Source of the DNA: Tritrichomonas foetus | Lineage: Eukaryota; Parabasalia; Tritrichomonadida; Tritrichomonadidae | Length of the DNA stretch: 64,000 nt | Direction: 5' to 3' | NCBI GenBank assembly: GCA_001839685.1 | Contig: MLAK01000673.1 | Span: 962 to 64,961, forward strand | Shown: positions 3,043-53,543 of the stretch, piece by piece | Layout: every line of letters starts with the position of its first letter | Numbering within the stretch: the stretch's first letter is position 1 | Translations under genes and position numbers: made by a program | Notes under the pieces: generated by a model | What the model was told of the DNA's origin: nothing | What the model saw: the letters and a program-made list of their open reading frames with translations, nothing else | The model's database searches: none

Positions 3043-6021
3043 ATGACATCAGATCCACCCCCTCCTTCAGCCCCCAAAACAACATTAGCGCATACTGAGG
3101 AAGAAGAGTTCGAAGAAGATTCTGATAGTTTTTATGAGGAACAACTCGCTTTTGCTGGATTTTCAGATTCTGATGACGACGAAAATAAAGATTATATTAC
3201 ACCTTCAGTTTTGCCCGACGATGCGGTTAAATCATGTGACCAAGTAGTGGAATTTGAAATTCCATCACTTGCCGAAATTTCTTCAGAAAATCCAATCCAA
3301 GGTAAAGATATCCAATTCGATCGATTTACACTCCAAACGCGATTTGAGATCAATTTAGCACAAGAAGGAGCCGTTTATTTTTCATTGAATTGCGAAGAAA
3401 ACTTCATTTTGGATATCTCATTAAATATTCCATCAATTCATCGAGTTATATATAACCGCTATTGCTCATTCAATAAAGGGTCATCAGTTGCAACCTTGCA
3501 TCCAGCACTTTTTGCACCTTCTGAAATTCTTGATCAGCCCCTACAAGCATATATTTCCATTCATAAGCAGCCACCTGAAAATTTCTCACGGCAGTACTTC
3601 AATTGTGTTGGCCTTGTAAATTCTGGTATGACATGTTACCTGAATTCCTTAATTCAATGCCTCTTTCATATCAAGTTATTTAGAAAAACTGTTTATAATT
3701 GTGTTAATAAATCCAAAATAATGAATGCAATGAGAACATTATTTGGTCGGATGCAACTTTCTTATATTCCTGTTTCAACTCGTGATTTAACAATCGCCTT
3801 TGGTTGGAAAGACCAGGACTATCTTTTCCAGCAGCATGATGTGCAGGAACTCTTAAGAATACTTCTTTCGAGATTGGACGATAAATGTGAAGGTCAAGCA
3901 TCAAAAATATTCAAAGGTAAGAATTTGATTTCAATTGTCACAAGTACCATGACAAAATCTCAAGAAGAAGAATTCAACGACCTTTCATTAAGTGTGAAAG
4001 ATTTACATAATTTAAACGAATCTCTATCAAAGTTCTATGAAACAGATTATTTAAGTGGCGATAATCAATACACACTCGACGATAATTCCAAATGTGATGC
4101 TGAACATCAAACAAAAGCTATAGAAAATCCAACAATTTTGTGCCTCCATTTAAGGCGTTTTGAATACGTTGATGGTGCTATTATGAAAATTTACTCACGT
4201 TTTGAATATGAAGAAGAATTGGAATTTAATGGCGAAAAATACGAACTTATGTCAGTTGTTTCTCACTATGGATCAGTTTATGGTGGACATTATAATGCTT
4301 TTGTCAAAATTGATAATGTGTGGACTAATTTTGATGATGAAACTGTTCGTCATTGTGAACCATATGAAGCCCTCGAAGATAATTTCGGTGATGAATGTCG
4401 AAATAAATTTACTGCTTATGTTCTTTTCTATGCCAAAGTCGGTGCAAATGATATTAAAGAACCACAAGTACCACAAGATATTATTGATGCAGAAAAAGAA
4501 AGAATATCACATGTTAAGGTTTTATTTTATTATGGAACACATGAAGAACCTTTTGAAATTGATCTCGACAAAAATATGGAATCGAAAGATTACATTGAAA
4601 AATTGAGTCAAGAGACTGGAATCCCTGCAGATAAACTTGTAGTCAAAACAATCGATGAAAACTACGGCACTACTGTTGTAGAGAATCCAAAACCTGAACC
4701 ATATCCATTTTTAATTGATGATTCTCCACTAACAGCTATTTGGGTAAAATTCTGGATTCCTAACTATGATGTTATTTACTTGGGCGTCTTTCACATCAAC
4801 GAAGGCGATACTGTTGAAAAACTAGGCTCAGAAATTTTGAAGAAATTGGAACTTCCTGAAGCTTCACTTGAATGTCTTTTCATTCTTGATGAAGAAATGG
4901 AAGGAACACCAGCCAGTGGCAAAATTGAACAAGGATGTCTGCTTCTTTTCCAATATTCTGAAGAATCAGCAACTCCAGATAATTTTAAAGCTTTTGAAGA
5001 AGCTGCCAAAAAGATTACAACTTTGAAGCCTTGTAAAATGCCACAATATGAAAGTCATTTAACTCTTCTTGATGATGAAATTTCTATCAAGAACCACTCT
5101 GATTACTATAAGTATATTAAAGAAACAGACAAACTCACTTTTCGTTCATGCACCGATCCTGATAATGAATCAAAAACATTCACTTTAGAATTGTCTAGGC
5201 ATTTAACTTTCGAACAGGTTGTCAAATGTCTTTCTAAGAAACTCAACGCTGATCCAACACATGTCCTTTTGTATCTACCCGATCGATTTTCTCAAATACA
5301 TGATCCACGACCATTAAGTAAAGATGTTTACCATCTTTGCTTTAGTATTACCGAAATAACTGATATTGTTTACTATGAAGTATTCGATGAAGATATGAGA
5401 TTTGCAAATAAAGCTGACATTACCATAATTACTGAAAAGGGTGAACTACAAAGTCGCAATTCCATTATTATGAAGCGTGGCCCACCACAAACACTACAAG
5501 TGCTCGCTGAAAAAGTTGTCGAATTAATTAATACCACGAATTTCTTAATGTATTATATAGTTGATGCTGTTCCAGTGTTTATTCCTGATGATAAAAACAG
5601 CGACGTTTCATTTGATCATAGAATCTTTGTGCAACTTTACCCATCAGAATTGGAAATTCAAAATTACATAAAATTACGAGTAATCCGATGTGATGATCAA
5701 TTTTTCTTACCAGCGATGTCACATGGATTGCCTTATGTTGTATTTACTGAAAAAGGAAGCAATTGGAATAACATCAAAGAAAAGTTTGCCGATGAAAAAA
5801 TTCAATTAATGAGGCTTTTGAAAAGAAGAGTGACACCAATTGATGTAACAGAAGATCAAGAAATAACAGAAGAAGATATCTTGGCTATTACATATTCGAG
5901 GGATTATTCATGTTCACTGTTTTCAACAAGTGGTGCAATTGAAATTACGAAAGAAGATGATGAAGTTTTCAATGAAGAAGAAGAATTTTTCGAAGAAGAG
6001 GAAGAAGGAATAGAGGAATAA
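3043..6021 (+). CDS. USP7/HAUSP-type ubiquitin-specific protease
   Basis: Cysteine protease that removes ubiquitin from proteins. The 992-residue product has an acidic N-terminus (to about 70), a region resembling a degenerate MATH/TRAF-like domain (about 90-180), and a USP catalytic domain (about 190-450). The Cys box is GLVNSGMTCYLNSL with Cys198, followed by QQHDVQELLRILL, the LHLRRFEY strand, and the His box YGGHYNAFVK with His416. WTNFDDETV supplies Asp431/432, and EALEDNFGDE and TAYVLFYAK close the domain as in human USP7. The long C-terminal part (about 460-960) fits the chain of ubiquitin-like domains of USP7/Ubp15. The protein ends in a Glu-rich tail. All catalytic residues are present. 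The first ATG of the open frame is taken. Family assignment is from motif order; ubiquitin-like folds are inferred. Confidence 0.88.
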   Translation: MTSDPPPPSAPKTTLAHTEEEEFEEDSDSFYEEQLAFAGFSDSDDDENKDYITPSVLPDDAVKSCDQVVEFEIPSLAEISSENPIQGKDIQFDRFTLQTRFEINLAQEGAVYFSLNCEENFILDISLNIPSIHRVIYNRYCSFNKGSSVATLHPALFAPSEILDQPLQAYISIHKQPPENFSRQYFNCVGLVNSGMTCYLNSLIQCLFHIKLFRKTVYNCVNKSKIMNAMRTLFGRMQLSYIPVSTRDLTIAFGWKDQDYLFQQHDVQELLRILLSRLDDKCEGQASKIFKGKNLISIVTSTMTKSQEEEFNDLSLSVKDLHNLNESLSKFYETDYLSGDNQYTLDDNSKCDAEHQTKAIENPTILCLHLRRFEYVDGAIMKIYSRFEYEEELEFNGEKYELMSVVSHYGSVYGGHYNAFVKIDNVWTNFDDETVRHCEPYEALEDNFGDECRNKFTAYVLFYAKVGANDIKEPQVPQDIIDAEKERISHVKVLFYYGTHEEPFEIDLDKNMESKDYIEKLSQETGIPADKLVVKTIDENYGTTVVENPKPEPYPFLIDDSPLTAIWVKFWIPNYDVIYLGVFHINEGDTVEKLGSEILKKLELPEASLECLFILDEEMEGTPASGKIEQGCLLLFQYSEESATPDNFKAFEEAAKKITTLKPCKMPQYESHLTLLDDEISIKNHSDYYKYIKETDKLTFRSCTDPDNESKTFTLELSRHLTFEQVVKCLSKKLNADPTHVLLYLPDRFSQIHDPRPLSKDVYHLCFSITEITDIVYYEVFDEDMRFANKADITIITEKGELQSRNSIIMKRGPPQTLQVLAEKVVELINTTNFLMYYIVDAVPVFIPDDKNSDVSFDHRIFVQLYPSELEIQNYIKLRVIRCDDQFFLPAMSHGLPYVVFTEKGSNWNNIKEKFADEKIQLMRLLKRRVTPIDVTEDQEITEEDILAITYSRDYSCSLFSTSGAIEITKEDDEVFNEEEEFFEEEEEGIEE

Positions 6022-31248: not shown

Positions 31249-34170
31249 TCATGTTAATTCGCGAATTCTATCTTTCAAAGCAATAACAAGTTGCTCAAGT
31301 TGGCATATTTTTTCTGATTGATCTTCTTCCTCCAATAATTCATTTGTTTGTTTTTCCAGTAAATCAAGTTTTAATTGTGCTAATTCATTTTGTTTTATTA
31401 AACCATCTTTTTCTTTATTTAATTCATCAATTTTTTGTTTGTCTTGTTGAAATTTTTGAATGAGCTCTTCTTTTTCTTGTTGGATTGACCGAATTTTATT
31501 TTTAAGATCTTCAACAAAACACGTAAGGACGTTGATTTGTTCAGATTGGTCTTCTTCTTCAAGTAATTCATTCGTTTTCTCTTCAAGTAAATGAAGCTTA
31601 AGTTGTGATAATTCATTTTCTTTCCTTAATTGACTAATTGTTTCTTGATTATCTGTATTTTTTAGAATGAATTGTTCTTTTTCTTTTTCAAAGTTTTGAA
31701 CTTTTCCTTGAAGTTCTTTAATTATATTGTTGAGCATATCTAATTGAGTGGTTAATAAATTGCATTTTTGATTAGATGATTCGAGTTCTTCTTTGAAACT
31801 TTTGTTTTCTTGCGTTAATTGGTTGATTAAATTCTGATTTTTAGTATTTGTCTGAAGGAAACTTGTTTTATCTTGATCATATGTTCTAATTTTTTCTTTC
31901 AATTCTTCAATTATTTGATTGTTTTCTGATTGATCTAATGTTTCCTGGTTCTGTAATTGTTCAGTTAATAAGCTGCATTTTTGTTGTGATAATTCAAGTC
32001 TTTCAGATAGGCTTTTGTTTTCTTGAATTAAATTCTTGTTCTGTTGAATATTAGTTGTCACTAATTGTTTATTCTTTTGTTCAATTGATCTAAACTTTGT
32101 TTTAATTTGTTCAATAATATACTCAGGATTAGTGATTGTATTAATTATATTTTCATTAAGGATTCCTTTTAATTGATTTTCGTAAAATGTGCTTTTTCTC
32201 TCAATTTCGTCAAATTTTCGCTTTAGAACAAGATTTTCGTCTTTGTGATTTTGACAAGATTGAATAAGTTGATCTAATTTAATTTGTTGAGTATTATATT
32301 GATTGGTAAGCTGGGATAACTCATGAGTCAGATGGTCATTTTTTGCTTGAAGATTGTTAATTTCAGTTTCTTGTTCTTGATAGTTTTCTGGTGGTTTTTC
32401 AGGTTTCTGTTCAAGTCTAGTATTAATATTATTGTATTCTATTTTAAGGTCTTTATTTTCTTTTTCAAGTTCATTAATATGAGCTTGAAGTTCAGAAATA
32501 TTTCTTTCTGACTCCTGTTTGAATTGGAGAAGAATTTCATTTCGATTTTGGAGATCAGTGAGATTTTGGAGATTGTGTTTAAGGATTTTATTCGCTTTTT
32601 CATTTTGATTTAATTTTTGTTGTTGTTCGTTAATTGTTTGTTGCTGCTTTTGTTTCGATTGTTCAAGTATGTTTATTTGATTTTGCATTTCTGTTATTTG
32701 TTGTTGATTTTTCAAATCATTAGCACGAAAATGTTCCAATTCAGATGAAATTGATTCGCTATTTTCATATTGTGCTTGTTTTTCTTGTTCAAGTTGTAAT
32801 ATTCGTTTTTTATAATCAGAAATATTTTTTCTTTGTTTGAGATTTGATTGTTCAAGAGTAGTATATTTATTTTGTAAATTTACAATTTTTTGTTGAAGCT
32901 CCTTCTCAATTAGTGAAATAGATTCTCTATTTTGATTCTGAAGAGTTGAAATCATTGATTTAAGCTGTTGATTTTCACTTTGAAGATTCGCATTTTCTTG
33001 TTGAAGTTCCAAAATGTGTGAATTATTTTGATCATGGTTCAACTCATTAGTTGCTTTTAGATGCTCAATTTCTTTTTGAATATCTACGATTTCTTTATTT
33101 TGTGTTTGCTTCTCTTGTTCAAGTTTCGCCTTTTGATTTTGAAGGGAGTAAATCAGCTGGCTTTGCTTTTGATACTCTTTTTTAATATTTAGATTTTCTT
33201 GCTCAAGGGTTTGGTATTCTTTTTTAAGATTATGATTTTCTTTTTGAAGATTTGTTAAACCTTGTTGAAGTTTGTATAACTCATTTTGAAGTGATTGTAT
33301 ATTTCCATTATGATCTTTCTTCAAAGATTCTTTGAGTTTTTTGTTCTTAGTTTCGAGGTCCTTTATTATATTTTGATAATGTTTTAATCTAGAAAGGGCC
33401 TTTTCCAATAAACTGCGAAGTTCTGATTCTTGTTGAGTTTTAGATTTATCTTTTTTCAAAATTTCTATTGATTTGTTGAGCTTTGAGTTTTCTTGTTGAA
33501 GTTTTGAGTTTCCTTGTTGAAGTTTTGAGTTTTCTTGTTGAAGATTTGAGTTTCCTTGCTGAAGTTTTGAGTTTCCTTGTTGGAGATTTGAGTTTTCTTG
33601 TTGGAGATTTGAGTTTTCTTGTTGGAGATTTGAGTTTTCTTGTTGGAGATTTGAGTTTCCTTGCTGAAGCTTTGAGTTTCCTTGTTGAAGATTTGAGTTT
33701 TCTTGTTGAAGCTTTGAGTTTTCTTGTTGAAGCTTTGAGTTTTCTTGTTGAAGCTTTGAGTTTTCTTGTTGAAGCTTTGAGTTTTCTTGTTGAAGCTTTG
33801 AGTTTTCTTGTTGGAGTTTTGAGTTTATATTTTCATTATAACGAATAGCAAGTTTGCACATTTTCTTTTCCTTTTCCAACTCTCCAATTATCCTTTTTAA
33901 TTCGTCTTTTTGAATCTGATAATCATTCAAACGGTTATTTTCATCGCGCAATTTATCATTCTCATCACAAATTCGATGCGCCTCGTCATTGAATCTTTTA
34001 ATTAATTCAATAAATGAACTTTTGCGCAAATTGAATTCCATCTGCTGGTCTTCAATTTTTTTAGCTTCAGTATTTAATTTAATTAATAAACTCTTCATTT
34101 TTAATTGAACGTCGGGTGAAATTGTGTCGTTTTGCTTTTCCTTGTTCCTCGGCGAGAAAAAATCACTCAT
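31249..34170 (-). CDS. long coiled-coil protein with heptad tandem repeats
   Basis: 973 residues, ATG start (MSDFFSPRNKEKQND), almost entirely coiled coil rich in Gln, Asn, Lys and Glu. Near the N-terminus (residues 116-227) are sixteen consecutive seven-residue units NS[KN]LQQ[EG], each from a 21-bp DNA unit. The C-terminal 350 residues contain about four longer repeats of some 75 residues. The last two are the most alike (both contain KTNELLEEEDQSE or QTNELLEEEDQSE, with KLHLLE/KLDLLE before and RI[RS]-like endings after). There is no membrane segment or catalytic domain. Role unknown: cytoskeletal, Golgi-tether or centrosomal proteins have this shape. Homology by composition alone would mislead. 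Confidence 0.8.
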   Translation of the reverse strand: MSDFFSPRNKEKQNDTISPDVQLKMKSLLIKLNTEAKKIEDQQMEFNLRKSSFIELIKRFNDEAHRICDENDKLRDENNRLNDYQIQKDELKRIIGELEKEKKMCKLAIRYNENINSKLQQENSKLQQENSKLQQENSKLQQENSKLQQENSKLQQENSNLQQGNSKLQQGNSNLQQENSNLQQENSNLQQENSNLQQGNSKLQQGNSNLQQENSKLQQGNSKLQQENSKLNKSIEILKKDKSKTQQESELRSLLEKALSRLKHYQNIIKDLETKNKKLKESLKKDHNGNIQSLQNELYKLQQGLTNLQKENHNLKKEYQTLEQENLNIKKEYQKQSQLIYSLQNQKAKLEQEKQTQNKEIVDIQKEIEHLKATNELNHDQNNSHILELQQENANLQSENQQLKSMISTLQNQNRESISLIEKELQQKIVNLQNKYTTLEQSNLKQRKNISDYKKRILQLEQEKQAQYENSESISSELEHFRANDLKNQQQITEMQNQINILEQSKQKQQQTINEQQQKLNQNEKANKILKHNLQNLTDLQNRNEILLQFKQESERNISELQAHINELEKENKDLKIEYNNINTRLEQKPEKPPENYQEQETEINNLQAKNDHLTHELSQLTNQYNTQQIKLDQLIQSCQNHKDENLVLKRKFDEIERKSTFYENQLKGILNENIINTITNPEYIIEQIKTKFRSIEQKNKQLVTTNIQQNKNLIQENKSLSERLELSQQKCSLLTEQLQNQETLDQSENNQIIEELKEKIRTYDQDKTSFLQTNTKNQNLINQLTQENKSFKEELESSNQKCNLLTTQLDMLNNIIKELQGKVQNFEKEKEQFILKNTDNQETISQLRKENELSQLKLHLLEEKTNELLEEEDQSEQINVLTCFVEDLKNKIRSIQQEKEELIQKFQQDKQKIDELNKEKDGLIKQNELAQLKLDLLEKQTNELLEEEDQSEKICQLEQLVIALKDRIRELT
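33490..33825 (-). repeat. 16 x 21-bp tandem repeat inside the coiled-coil gene
   Basis: On the + strand the unit is TTCTTGTTGAAGCTTTGAGTT with small variants (GAAG/GGAG, CTT/TTT/ATT, TTCTTG/TTCCTTG). Sixteen units fill exactly 336 bp. Each unit is seven codons, one heptad, so gain or loss of units keeps both reading frame and coiled-coil register. Variant units are interspersed, suggesting repeated local duplication. Confidence 0.9.
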
Positions 34171-38659: not shown

Positions 38660-41600
38660 ATGAATTCCTATTTTACAGATTTAAATTATCTTTATTCAAA
38701 ATATATCGATATTCCAGCACTAGTAATACAAGCCATCTACGACTCTCATGATGATCGATCTCTCGATGATGTCGAATCCGTTTTAAATTCAAGAGATAGT
38801 TCCGATTTTATCATGGAAAGTGAAGAAGCTAAACAACTTCAATTAGTTTATCCATTAGCAACAAAGAAAGAAATTGATTCTGCAATTTCCGATCTAAATG
38901 ATGATATGTTTATGTCTTCAAGATTATATGCGAAATATTTCATTAAGAGAGAAACTTCATTGTTCACCAATTTGCCAGAAAACGTGAGTATTTTGAAAAT
39001 CAAGAAAATCAGAATAATTCAATCCAATGTTATTAAAGATGCTTTTAAAAACATTATTAAAGAAATTTCACAAAATTTGAAGTATGATGAAGCTTGGTTT
39101 CTTAATTCGACTATTTCCAATATTTCATCAATAGCCAAAACTTTTGGATTCAATCATGTTTATGAAAGTAAAGCACTTCCTGGAATTGTCATCGTTTCAA
39201 TACATGATTATAAAATAAATAATTTATTTTCTTTCTTCAATAAAAAGAAAATTTCGAAATTGGGATTGGAAGAAAATAAAATCCATGAAATTTCTGAATC
39301 AAATTCTTTTAAGCGTTTATTTGAAGTTCACTCAAATTATGATCCATCTGTTCTAATTAAAAAGTATATCATACGTAAATTTAACCTTTTGGATACTTTG
39401 AATTCCACGCCATGTAAAGATATTAAAGAACTCACAAAATTGAAAGATTCTGATGAATCAACTGGATTTATTATTGATTTAAGTCATTTTGACAATCAAT
39501 CGGCATACAAACTCTTCAAAAAGTTGTTTAATCATATCCAAAATCATAGAGTTGCCATTGTTCATTTTGTTTTTCCACGTTTTTGGAAGGGAAATTGCAC
39601 AAGAAATAGTATTCTGAAATTCTTGAAAAATAGTTTGGAGAAAACCCAAATAAAAGTAAATACTCAAGTGCCTTGCCTCTTGAAACTTGAGTTTATTCAA
39701 CTTGTTTCACCTTCTCGTACATTTCAATTTGCTCCACCACAAAACTATAATGACATAAAACCTAAAAAAATACCAACAAGACCATTTAAATTTATTCCAC
39801 CTTCGGCTGTGAATGCTGATGATACCACACCAAAACCAAATGCAGCAGCAGATGGAAATCCGCCATTTTTCACCCCACCAAGTGACGCTAAAACTTCACT
39901 AATTTTCACTCCACCAAATAAAGTTAATAATGATGCTATTCCTAAAAAGAAATTAGACTTCATTCCACCTGAGAATGTGAATAAATTACAGCCAACATTT
40001 TCTAAAAAGACAACGAATGTTGCAAATCGAAAAATTTACAAAGTTCTCGATGATATTTTTTCAGTTTTACCTGAGTACTTCAAAGATATTCGCAACATGG
40101 ATAATTTTATAATTTCACCAACCACTTTTCTTCATGCAACTGCTGCTCTTTATTCACTCACCAACAAGAAATCATCAAACTCAATTGTCAAAGAAATAAA
40201 TTACATAATTCAGAATTATAATGGCAATTTTGATTATAAATGTACAGTCTTTCAAAAAAAACTTAGAAAAGTTTCACTTCCTGAAACTGTATTTGTTCAA
40301 TTCAATCAAACAAAACTTATTCCAGAAATAAATAAAATAGCTAAAACAAATCTTGGTGCTAATTTTGATATATGTGACATTAAATTAGATCCACATCGAA
40401 TTCAATCATTGGTCTTATCAACAGCAAAAATCCAACCTAAATTAAATATGACTTTTGTAGAAAATAATGAAATTTCTAATATTTACAATTCTTGGTTCAC
40501 TTTCAATAATGATCTCATTCCAACACATTTTTATGTCGCTTTTAATCAAAAATTATTATTCTCTGCCCAAAAAAACTATCAAATTGTCTCATTGCCGTTT
40601 GAAACAGGAGATCTTGGAATTACAATTTTTTTGCCATCGACTCGACTTACTTTACAGAGAATCTCTAAAGAACTGAGCCTTAATTTCCTGTTAGGTAAGT
40701 TTGAAACGATGACAGAACATTATTTTGGTAAAGTTGTGATGCCTTTTATCGATTTTGAATATACTTCTTCTAATGCAACTAAAAATGTTGAAAAAATGAA
40801 GAAACTGGATTATGTTGTTCAAACTATGAGGTTGGTTATTAACCCTTTAAATTCCACATCTCCAACTAAAGGAACAAAAAGCGAGAATGAGAATATATTC
40901 GTTATCAATCATCCATTTTTGTTTATTATACATGAATATGAAAATCAAAAGCCAACATGTAATATTAGATTCATTGGAACATGTACTGAACCTGCCACAT
41001 CATCTCCACCCCCAGTATCCCCTAAATGGCCACCTCAATTCATATCACCATCTAAGCCTGAAACCAAACATGAGTCTCTTCAATCAGAAGATTCAAGTGT
41101 TGGTGTTCTGAAAAGACAACATTCCCAACCTGTTAATCTACTATTGGTTATTGAAAAGCTTCAAAATGAATTTCCTTACTATTCAAAAGAAGTCATTCAA
41201 AAAGTAGTTGAAGCTTTCACTGTTCCTAATTATCATGGCGCTTTTAACATTTTGGATCAGCATAATCCAAGTGACTTCGACTGCAATACTCGTAAAGGAA
41301 AACTTTTGCTCCTCTTTCCACTAGCAACAGAAGAACAACTCGAAGAAACACTGTTACAAGATTTTCCTAATGAAGAACTCTATATTAACTATTTGAATGA
41401 AAAGATATTTGGGAATACTTTTGGAATACAAATTGGTACTACTGATAGCATAAAAATCAAAACTATAGTGGAGTTCGACATGCATGGCATTCGTCCTCAA
41501 GAAATTGAAAAACAGATTTATAATCTTATTATAAAATGCGATGAAAGTTTGGTTGATCAAATTCATTTTATTCCTGGAAAAGGTATACATTCTGCAAATA

Positions 41601-42310
41601 TGCCAATTTTTAGACAATTAGTTTTTTGTGTATGTGCAATGAAACATTTAGAAGCTTTGCCATGCCCACTTAATGCAGGAGTGTTTATTGTCCGAATGAA
41701 ACACTATTTTCAGTATCCAGAAATTGAAAAAACTAAAGAAAATAAAGCTGTACAAAAACTTTATCCAAACTTGCCGTTAATTGTGTGTGACTTTTTAACA
41801 AAACCAACTAGAACGTTTGAAGAAATAAAGAAAATTGGTGACCGAATTTCCAAATTATTTACTGACTCTAAAGTTGTCCGAAATAAAAATACTGAACTGA
41901 AACAATTGGATAGTTGTCAAACTATAAACATGGTTGGATTTGTGGAAAACGAGTTCAACTCACTTGAAGATTTAAATTTTCAAAAAAGAGATGATAAAAC
42001 TGATATACTTCAAAAAATTGTGAAACTCGATTTAACTTATACTTCACAAACAAAAGCTGAAAGAAATATAACAAGATTTGTGGTTGCTTTAGGTAACAAT
42101 CAGATTCAAGAACTCATTCTTTCCTTTGAGATGGATGAAATCGGTAAACAAAAAGCAGAATATATTGTTGGTTTTGTTAATAACCAAGTTAATCTTCTTA
42201 AAATAAAATCTAAGATTCAACTTATCACAGATACATTTGGAAATGTTCACTGTACAAACCAGCATAGATCAAAACTTTCAGTGCAATCTAATGCGAAATA
42301 TTGCAAATAA
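38660..42310 (+). CDS. serpin domain between duplicated CUE-like/Smr modules
   Basis: 1216 residues, ATG start, no signal peptide or membrane segment. The centre (about 460-780) is a serpin: NFIISPTTFLHATAALY, YQIVSLPFETGDLGITIFLP, and FVINHPFLFII (747-757), a full match to the serpin signature, then IRFIGTCTEP. The reactive-loop region, between RLVINP and the signature, is short and lacks the small-residue hinge of inhibitors. The C-terminal part has a CUE-like helix bundle (829-865), an Smr domain (935-1015; FDMHG and PGKGIHS) and a weaker Smr-like unit (from IVKLDLTYTSQ, 1120). The N-terminal part repeats this order: YPLATKKEI against FPLATEEQL, then degenerate Smr-like units at about 112-190 and 268-345. 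Pro-rich FTPPS/FTPPN linkers precede the serpin. Function unknown. Confidence 0.82.
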   Translation: MNSYFTDLNYLYSKYIDIPALVIQAIYDSHDDRSLDDVESVLNSRDSSDFIMESEEAKQLQLVYPLATKKEIDSAISDLNDDMFMSSRLYAKYFIKRETSLFTNLPENVSILKIKKIRIIQSNVIKDAFKNIIKEISQNLKYDEAWFLNSTISNISSIAKTFGFNHVYESKALPGIVIVSIHDYKINNLFSFFNKKKISKLGLEENKIHEISESNSFKRLFEVHSNYDPSVLIKKYIIRKFNLLDTLNSTPCKDIKELTKLKDSDESTGFIIDLSHFDNQSAYKLFKKLFNHIQNHRVAIVHFVFPRFWKGNCTRNSILKFLKNSLEKTQIKVNTQVPCLLKLEFIQLVSPSRTFQFAPPQNYNDIKPKKIPTRPFKFIPPSAVNADDTTPKPNAAADGNPPFFTPPSDAKTSLIFTPPNKVNNDAIPKKKLDFIPPENVNKLQPTFSKKTTNVANRKIYKVLDDIFSVLPEYFKDIRNMDNFIISPTTFLHATAALYSLTNKKSSNSIVKEINYIIQNYNGNFDYKCTVFQKKLRKVSLPETVFVQFNQTKLIPEINKIAKTNLGANFDICDIKLDPHRIQSLVLSTAKIQPKLNMTFVENNEISNIYNSWFTFNNDLIPTHFYVAFNQKLLFSAQKNYQIVSLPFETGDLGITIFLPSTRLTLQRISKELSLNFLLGKFETMTEHYFGKVVMPFIDFEYTSSNATKNVEKMKKLDYVVQTMRLVINPLNSTSPTKGTKSENENIFVINHPFLFIIHEYENQKPTCNIRFIGTCTEPATSSPPPVSPKWPPQFISPSKPETKHESLQSEDSSVGVLKRQHSQPVNLLLVIEKLQNEFPYYSKEVIQKVVEAFTVPNYHGAFNILDQHNPSDFDCNTRKGKLLLLFPLATEEQLEETLLQDFPNEELYINYLNEKIFGNTFGIQIGTTDSIKIKTIVEFDMHGIRPQEIEKQIYNLIIKCDESLVDQIHFIPGKGIHSANMPIFRQLVFCVCAMKHLEALPCPLNAGVFIVRMKHYFQYPEIEKTKENKAVQKLYPNLPLIVCDFLTKPTRTFEEIKKIGDRISKLFTDSKVVRNKNTELKQLDSCQTINMVGFVENEFNSLEDLNFQKRDDKTDILQKIVKLDLTYTSQTKAERNITRFVVALGNNQIQELILSFEMDEIGKQKAEYIVGFVNNQVNLLKIKSKIQLITDTFGNVHCTNQHRSKLSVQSNAKYCK

Positions 42311-52559: not shown

Positions 52560-53543
52560 CTAATCAGGAAGAATCTGAAGAAGTACATCTTTTATCTCTG
52601 GATCGATTTTATCTGGATAAACAACATCAAACTTCACGTAGAGGTCACCTCGTCCACCTTGTCTTCTGGTCATTCCTTGTCCGGCGTATTTCACTGAAGT
52701 TCCAGGCTTGATTACTTGGTCGGAAATTTGAATGGGTATCTTTACTCCATCAATTCCTTGAATTTCGAATGAAACCCCACATAGCGCTTGTTTAATGGAA
52801 ATGGAAGCATTGCAAATCAAGTTATCTCTATCTCTAGCGAACGTTGAGTGCTGCATCTGGTTGATGATGAAAATCACATCCTGATCCTGATATCCTTGGA
52901 TGATATTTCCTTGTCCTGTAAACTTGAATTTCGTTCCGTCTAAAGTGCCTGGTAGAATATCTAATTTTATGATACTTTCGACAGTATCGTTATTGACTTT
53001 CTTTGTAATTCGTAGATTTTTCGAATCGCCTTTAAATAGTTGTTCGAGGGTGCAGGAGACTCTCAACTGGAGTGGAGCTTGCTCTCTGAGCGGAGGTGGA
53101 CCAGCGGGGCCCCTCCGGCTGAAACCGCTTGAGAAGAAATCGTCATCGTCAAATGGCGATCCCATTCTGAAGAAACCACCGAATGGCGAACCAAATCCTC
53201 GACTGTGAAATGAAGAATGAGCCCCAAAAGATGCAAAAGGATCTTCTCCGCCGAAGAATTGTCGAAATATTTCATTGGGATCCAAATGTTGGAATCTTGT
53301 GCCGGAATCGCCTGGCCCTCGAAGACCTTCTTCTCCGTATTTATCGAATAATCTCTTTTTTTCTGGATCGCTGAGGATTTCGTAAGCTTCAGAAATTTCC
53401 TGGAATTTTTTGCTTGCCTCTTCTTCATTTCCGCGGTTTTTATCGGGGTGCCACTTCATTGCAAGACGACGATATGCTTTCTTGATTTCATTTGCATCGG
53501 CTGTTCGAGGGATTTCGAGTATCTGATAATAATCTTTCCCCAT
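52560..53543 (-). CDS. type II (class B) DnaJ/Hsp40 co-chaperone
   Basis: 327 residues, ATG start at MGKDYYQILEIPRTA. J domain 1-70 with HPD at 32-34, which stimulates Hsp70 ATPase. Then a Gly/Phe-rich linker (about 72-155; PFASFGAHSSFHSRGFGSPF) and the two-part C-terminal substrate-binding domain (about 160-325; LDILPGTLDGTKFKFTGQGN, and PGTSVKYAGQGMTRRQGGRG). There is no Cys-rich zinc region, so it belongs with DNAJB1/Sis1 in the cytosol and nucleus. Length is near that of DNAJB1 (340). The stop is TAG at the natural C-terminus (VLLQILPD). Confidence 0.94.
   Translation of the reverse strand: MGKDYYQILEIPRTADANEIKKAYRRLAMKWHPDKNRGNEEEASKKFQEISEAYEILSDPEKKRLFDKYGEEGLRGPGDSGTRFQHLDPNEIFRQFFGGEDPFASFGAHSSFHSRGFGSPFGGFFRMGSPFDDDDFFSSGFSRRGPAGPPPLREQAPLQLRVSCTLEQLFKGDSKNLRITKKVNNDTVESIIKLDILPGTLDGTKFKFTGQGNIIQGYQDQDVIFIINQMQHSTFARDRDNLICNASISIKQALCGVSFEIQGIDGVKIPIQISDQVIKPGTSVKYAGQGMTRRQGGRGDLYVKFDVVYPDKIDPEIKDVLLQILPD

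Follow-up and report, generated by a model that had tools for sequence, protein, structure and literature searches.

Serpins are chiefly known as inhibitors or carriers made of a single domain, and loop insertion and protease trapping by serpins need small residues in the hinge of the reactive loop. Hsp47 and ovalbumin are non-inhibitory members of the family, and both are single-domain proteins, unlike the serpin domain described below. An expanded serpin family has been named in a genome paper on Histomonas (PMC8529796), and the main texts of two T. foetus genome papers do not contain the word 'serpin' (PMC11415386, PMC12428144).

Another described system is yeast Cue2, which has one Smr domain, a pair of CUE domains and another two domains that putatively bind ubiquitin and which, as described in PMC6598757, cuts mRNA at stalled ribosomes, with cleavage being abolished when D348 and H350 are changed together. 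Ubiquitin binding by Cue2 involves the first two CUE domains and is required in one of two modes (PMC9841427).

In a stretch of 64,000 nucleotides of T. foetus DNA, analysed as a whole and called the window here, a gene was found that combines elements of both systems. Its serpin domain is located between two copies of a CUE-like/Smr module, as a first-pass annotation had proposed, and this architecture is known from one gene in one genome. Among the literature matches listed, no fusion of a serpin with an Smr or CUE domain was described, and those pairing a serpin with an Smr domain concerned, judging by title, tomato pollen and potato genomes. The reading preferred here, tentatively and at slightly less than even confidence, is that of an intracellular, internally duplicated protein of the Cue2/N4BP2 type, in which a non-inhibitory serpin would act as a binding or spacer domain and for which a role at the ribosome is suggested by kinship.

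The reading frame and its duplicated module

The gene is a single reading frame of 1216 codons without internal stop in the scan for open reading frames (Table 1), and third-position G+C stays at 0.18–0.23 across all five gene parts, as expected for one gene. These parts follow each other in the order N-copy module, proline-rich linker, serpin, second proline-rich linker and C-copy module, with each module made up of CUE-like units, an Smr domain and a second, less certain Smr-like unit. All motifs from which this layout had been drawn up were located, namely FVINHPFLFII at residues 747–757, NFIISP at 482–487 and FIG at 771 in the serpin, FDMHG at 939–943 and PGKGIHS at 972–978 in the C-copy, and the proposed counterparts YPLATKKEI (64–72) and FPLATEEQL (886–894), which are paired in the alignment of the N-copy with the C-copy. 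An intracellular form without a signal peptide had been proposed as well and agrees with the Kyte-Doolittle averages, as the top 15-residue stretch near the N-terminus averages 0.94, so that the start is not strongly hydrophobic, and no 19-residue stretch exceeds 1.2. These low averages make it unlikely that the protein has a signal peptide or a membrane segment.

Five F-[AIT]-P-P motifs (39728–39973) stand ahead of the serpin at a spacing of 12–26 residues, and a similar FISP lies past it. The set in the linker may provide several short binding motifs in a row.

The assembly is split over 1064 contigs, and a fusion of neighbouring genes by the assembly or the gene model might be suspected. 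Such an artefact is nevertheless extremely unlikely, as the frame is unbroken, homologous copies flank the serpin, and none of the parts, including the serpin and Smr parts named in the first-pass annotation as those that a fusion would have joined, had a second near-identical copy among the scored genome matches. In addition, no TCAYW lies within 25 bases ahead of an internal in-frame ATG before codon 1158, in a promoter check that is weak, with TCAYW found within 40 bases upstream of the first ATG in 8 of 24 frames.

Table 1. Features of the serpin-containing gene, with positions in the window
Feature	Residues	Position	Strand	Basis
Whole open reading frame, 1216 aa plus stop		38660..42310	+	frame and third-position G+C
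N-copy, two CUE-like helical units	~3–103	38666..38968	+	profile match; helical model
N-copy, place of first Smr, without DxH/GxGxH	~110–185	38987..39214	+	alignment position
N-copy, second, possibly Smr-like unit	~265–348	39452..39703	+	
First proline-rich linker, five F-[AIT]-P-P motifs		39728..40033	+	frame translation and motif scan
Serpin domain without reactive-loop hinge	459–783	40034..41008	+	Pfam, model, fold matches, alignment
Second proline-rich linker	784–820	41009..41119	+	frame translation
C-copy, two CUE-like units with FP motifs	~829–915	41144..41404	+	BLAST, alignment
C-copy, Smr with DMHG and GKGIHS	931–1025	41450..41734	+	profile 40.5 bits; motif
C-copy, second, possibly Smr-like unit	~1108–1190	41981..42229	+	BLAST; 7.4 bits

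A diverged copy of the module upstream of the serpin had also been suggested, and profile comparison confirmed that the upstream and downstream modules are related, as by internal duplication. The profile of the C-copy and its relative on contig C811 scored the N-copy at 25.0 bits, compared with 9.2 bits for the best of 1000 shuffles (882 scored, 118 without score). Searched against 142 pieces of real frames, taken from the window and from 14 fetched loci of the same genome with C811 and C137 excluded, the same profile reached 4.2 bits at best outside this gene and the Smr loci.

A well-kept nuclease motif had been expected in the C-copy only, and this is how it was found: the N-copy is without DxH/GxGxH, and the C-copy retains them. 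The Smr place of the N-copy scored 1.3 bits with the Smr profile, a value matched by 26 of 1000 shuffles. The Smr domain of the C-copy scored 40.5 bits against a profile built from the five further Smr domains in the genome (best shuffle 8.8 bits) and 14.2–16.4 bits, below the cut-off, with Pfam Smr. By BLAST, residues 831–992, which cover the CUE-like part of the C-copy and most of its Smr domain, matched residues 476–636 of the C811 protein at E 1.9e-11.

The CUE-like part of the N-copy was recognised by a profile match of 22.5 bits across residues 7–112. Its residues 1–60 were modelled as helices, with pLDDT of 52–85 per 10-residue block and low values beyond, in an N-terminal model that is poor as a whole (pLDDT 41). 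Pfam CUE had no match in this protein, neither in the whole chain nor in cut-out parts, and residues 831–881 of the C-copy aligned with the Pfam CUE stretch of the C137 protein at just E 0.03. Other Pfam matches in this protein, such as Cac1_C and Med27, were all below the cut-off. When the C-copy was compared with the PDB as a single sequence, the matches looked like chance, with no Smr or CUE structure among them.

A second Smr-like unit had been claimed after each Smr domain. The unit as such stood for the C-copy and the C811 protein, which have it in common (18.8 and 7.4 bits, with 0 of 1000 shuffles as high in each case; for the C-copy unit, at 7.4 bits, shuffles reached 7.1), and residues 1121–1173 matched residues 862–914 of the C811 protein by BLAST at E 7e-4. 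The claim did not hold equally for the N-copy, in which the unit is barely present (0.2 bits, 36 of 1000 shuffles as high), and the kinship with Smr is weak. With the profile of the first Smr domains, the second units went unrecognised in all three cases (0.5 bits, -1.5 bits and no score), and profile-profile comparison of the unit with Smr gave a probability of 18.8% (P 0.0013). The model of the N-copy second unit had the Smr domain of MutS2, not that of N4BP2, as its first fold match. An Smr-like nature of the second unit is less certain and rests mainly on this low-confidence model.

The serpin domain and its hinge

The presence of a serpin domain, as claimed in the first-pass annotation, was borne out by fold, signature and the NxxxSP and FIG elements. 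The cut-out of residues 441–799 scored 33.6 bits with Pfam Serpin (PF00079, inhibitor family I4), over the gathering cut-off of 27. Pfam Serpin was unlisted when the whole protein was scanned, and the locus was also missed by the genome-wide family search. The C-terminal serpin signature, in the form of the PROSITE pattern, had a single match, the one at 747–757. A structure model had been proposed as a check on this part; the model of the cut-out is a serpin fold (pLDDT 73) with serpins as fold matches, and it leans to this fold because an alignment with 39 other serpins was its input.

The alignment used for the comparison of serpins (A6) comprises 40 rows, namely this serpin, 34 of 80 fetched prokaryotic loci and 5 of the 8 open frames of the same genome, and excludes the serpins of C377, C229 and C712, which have long insertions. 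It replaced an earlier alignment of same-genome serpins only (A4), the middle of which was apparently out of register, and an alignment that combined serpins with CUE-Smr sequences (A3) was left unused, as it placed serpin ends on the Smr domain.

At the hinge position, this protein has NPLNSTSPTKG, not a stretch of the EEGTEAAAAT type. A small-residue hinge is present in 36 of the 39 other rows, a count in which canonical loops may be favoured, as the prokaryotic loci were found by two patterns, of which one lies near the end of the loop; the three exceptions (C106, C996 and C21) are all from the same genome. From the start of the hinge to the DHPF motif there are 22 residues here versus 26–34 in the other 39 rows, the shortest distance of the 40. 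Out of 360 well-filled serpin columns, 299 are filled and about 60 are absent, 20 of them together at LVLTNAIYFKADW and 19 further ones in the GMKTAFSG-ADFSG stretch. The gap at LVLTNAIYFKADW presumably corresponds to strand 3A, and the short stretch KLNMTFVEN at this gap could represent that strand, shifted out of register.

Judged by these sequence features, the serpin domain is most likely non-inhibitory, and a protease-trapping switch is unlikely, since the small-residue hinge is absent and the loop region is the shortest of all rows. The suggestion that the serpin is a regulated switch was not upheld, with the hinge gone and about 60 of the 360 columns absent. In its fuller form, this explanation makes the serpin a working conformational switch, flipped by a protease or ligand so as to activate or silence the Smr nuclease. 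The retained fold and the place of the domain between the module copies would suit such a device, but the altered hinge, the 22-residue loop and the 20 and 19 absent columns make it very unlikely. The domain resembles the serpin family in fold, signature and the NxxxSP and FIG elements, whereas the absent hinge, the short loop, the incomplete set of columns and its embedding in a protein of 1216 residues set it apart. Hsp47 and ovalbumin, both among its fold matches, are alike in having a serpin fold from which protease trapping is not expected.

Relatives in the same genome

Six places in the genome matched Smr at E ≤ 1 (C287, C137, C651, C496, C811 and this gene), and three of these matches exceeded the cut-off. 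The C137 frame has Pfam CUE and Smr both over their cut-offs, the C811 frame has CUE over and Smr under, the C287 frame has Smr over and no CUE match, and C651 has CUE over, with Smr at 23.7 bits (under) in the frame and 26.9 bits (over) in the genome search. Pfam serpin was not listed in any of these four frames. Several CUE/Smr proteins, not one, are thus present in this genome. All six Smr rows, this gene included, agree in the D, H and G of DxHG and in the two glycines of GxG, and the residue before GxG is threonine in the other five and proline in the C-copy. The C811 protein (950 aa) has CUE units, Smr and second unit in the same order as this gene, but is without a serpin match, and its self-comparison gave the full self-match only, without doubling of the module.

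Cue2, NONU-1 and N4BP2, which are CUE + Smr endonucleases of no-go decay, share with this gene CUE-type units ahead of an Smr domain in which DxH and GxGxH-type motifs are present. In contrast to them, the module is doubled here, the N-copy is without the motif, an extra unit lies past Smr, a serpin is inserted and CUE is unreported by Pfam. Compared with the PDB, the joint profile of the six Smr domains found N4BP2 and nothing else at E ≤ 0.01. Together with the CUE+Smr frames in the same genome, this supports the kinship behind the ribosome-linked kind of factor that the first-pass annotation had in mind, and a ribosome function is what we infer from that kinship only. Also in favour of this kind of factor, four places in the genome matched eRF1 domain 3, and one of the frames is Pelota-like by inspection.

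The same kinship would also allow a CUE+Smr protein outside ribosome quality control, with an Smr domain that binds or nicks other RNA or DNA in the manner of MutS2. Smr domains of different proteins act on DNA or RNA, as stated in PMC6598757, a more standard CUE+Smr protein on C137 would leave this gene free to differ, and MutS2 provides the first fold match of the N-copy second unit. As N4BP2 is all that the Smr profile finds among solved structures at E ≤ 0.01, a non-ribosomal role is considered unlikely, and the Cue2/N4BP2-type reading is retained.

Genome-wide, Pfam serpin matched 11 times at 9 places, of which 8 have open frames and one has three TAG, and the nine serpin contigs do not overlap with the six Smr contigs. 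A small-residue hinge was recognised by alignment in 3 of the 8 open frames (C174, C428 and C229); C229, with the hinge, and C377 and C712, without it, were judged by eye in alignment A4. Three same-genome serpins (L003, L004 and L005) are without a small-residue hinge, and on this basis the genome seems to harbour a group of serpins that are probably non-inhibitory. Another locus (L006, 667–2538, reverse strand) has a 624-residue frame in which a serpin (110.7 bits) precedes a charged tail that contains KRKR and is about 190 residues long; its hinge is not canonical by eye, and it is perhaps another non-inhibitory intracellular serpin.

Broken relatives of the gene were found as well. C376 matches residues 821–923 with two TAA inside, at a contig end; it is absent from the Pfam serpin matches of the genome, and a frame on the opposite strand starts about 300 bases past this relic. 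C72 matches residues 927–1046 and 1103–1188, with no stop inside these matches and stops between them, also at a contig end. Both ends carry the same repeat in opposite directions. This repeat of about 130–150 bases (L022 1–150, L023 92–223) occurs in many locations, including a number of contig ends, and 40 of 40 scored matches, from 52 candidates, are 98–100% identical. It probably represents the end of a mobile element with recent activity, and, because the same near-identical repeat stands at both relic contig ends, this element probably split the relative of the gene.

With broken pieces of a related gene in the same genome and very low similarity to every relative found, the gene might be taken for a decaying paralogue, its copies and serpin being drifting remains without a job. 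This is distinctly unlikely, as 1216 stop-free codons, even third positions and a retained Smr motif speak against decay. In viral contigs, one stretch matched a pattern and no relative was found in a search that could reveal close relatives only.

A possible role at stalled ribosomes and neighbouring genes

In the preferred reading as a Cue2/N4BP2-type protein, the CUE-like units of the C-copy would bring the protein to ribosomes that are stalled or collided and carry ubiquitin marks, and the Smr domain of the C-copy would cut or grip mRNA there. The N-copy would be a pseudo-enzyme keeping only binding, and it is the kinship with CUE+Smr proteins by which the C-copy is taken as the active or RNA-gripping half. 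The serpin, without protease trapping, would serve as a rigid interaction or spacing domain, like Hsp47. Beyond this, a more specific and fairly unlikely proposal is that the serpin fold was recruited into translation quality control. The protein would then be a CUE-Smr factor that is specific to its lineage and bound to ribosomes, with a non-inhibitory serpin as the bridge from a dead sensor copy to a live nuclease copy. It would be the first serpin on ribosomes or in mRNA decay. If true, a serpin fold inside a Cue2-type protein can serve RNA quality control, and the gene would provide a ready test of what collision nucleases need besides CUE and Smr.

Elsewhere in the window, genes for a USP7-like ubiquitin hydrolase (3043–6021) and a DnaJ-type co-chaperone (52560–53543) were noted, with no sign of a link to the serpin gene. 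A coiled-coil-like protein is encoded on the reverse strand (31249–34170) and has about 17 tandem 21-base repeats (SKLQQEN) at 33473–33826, which probably account for the strong AT skew of this region.
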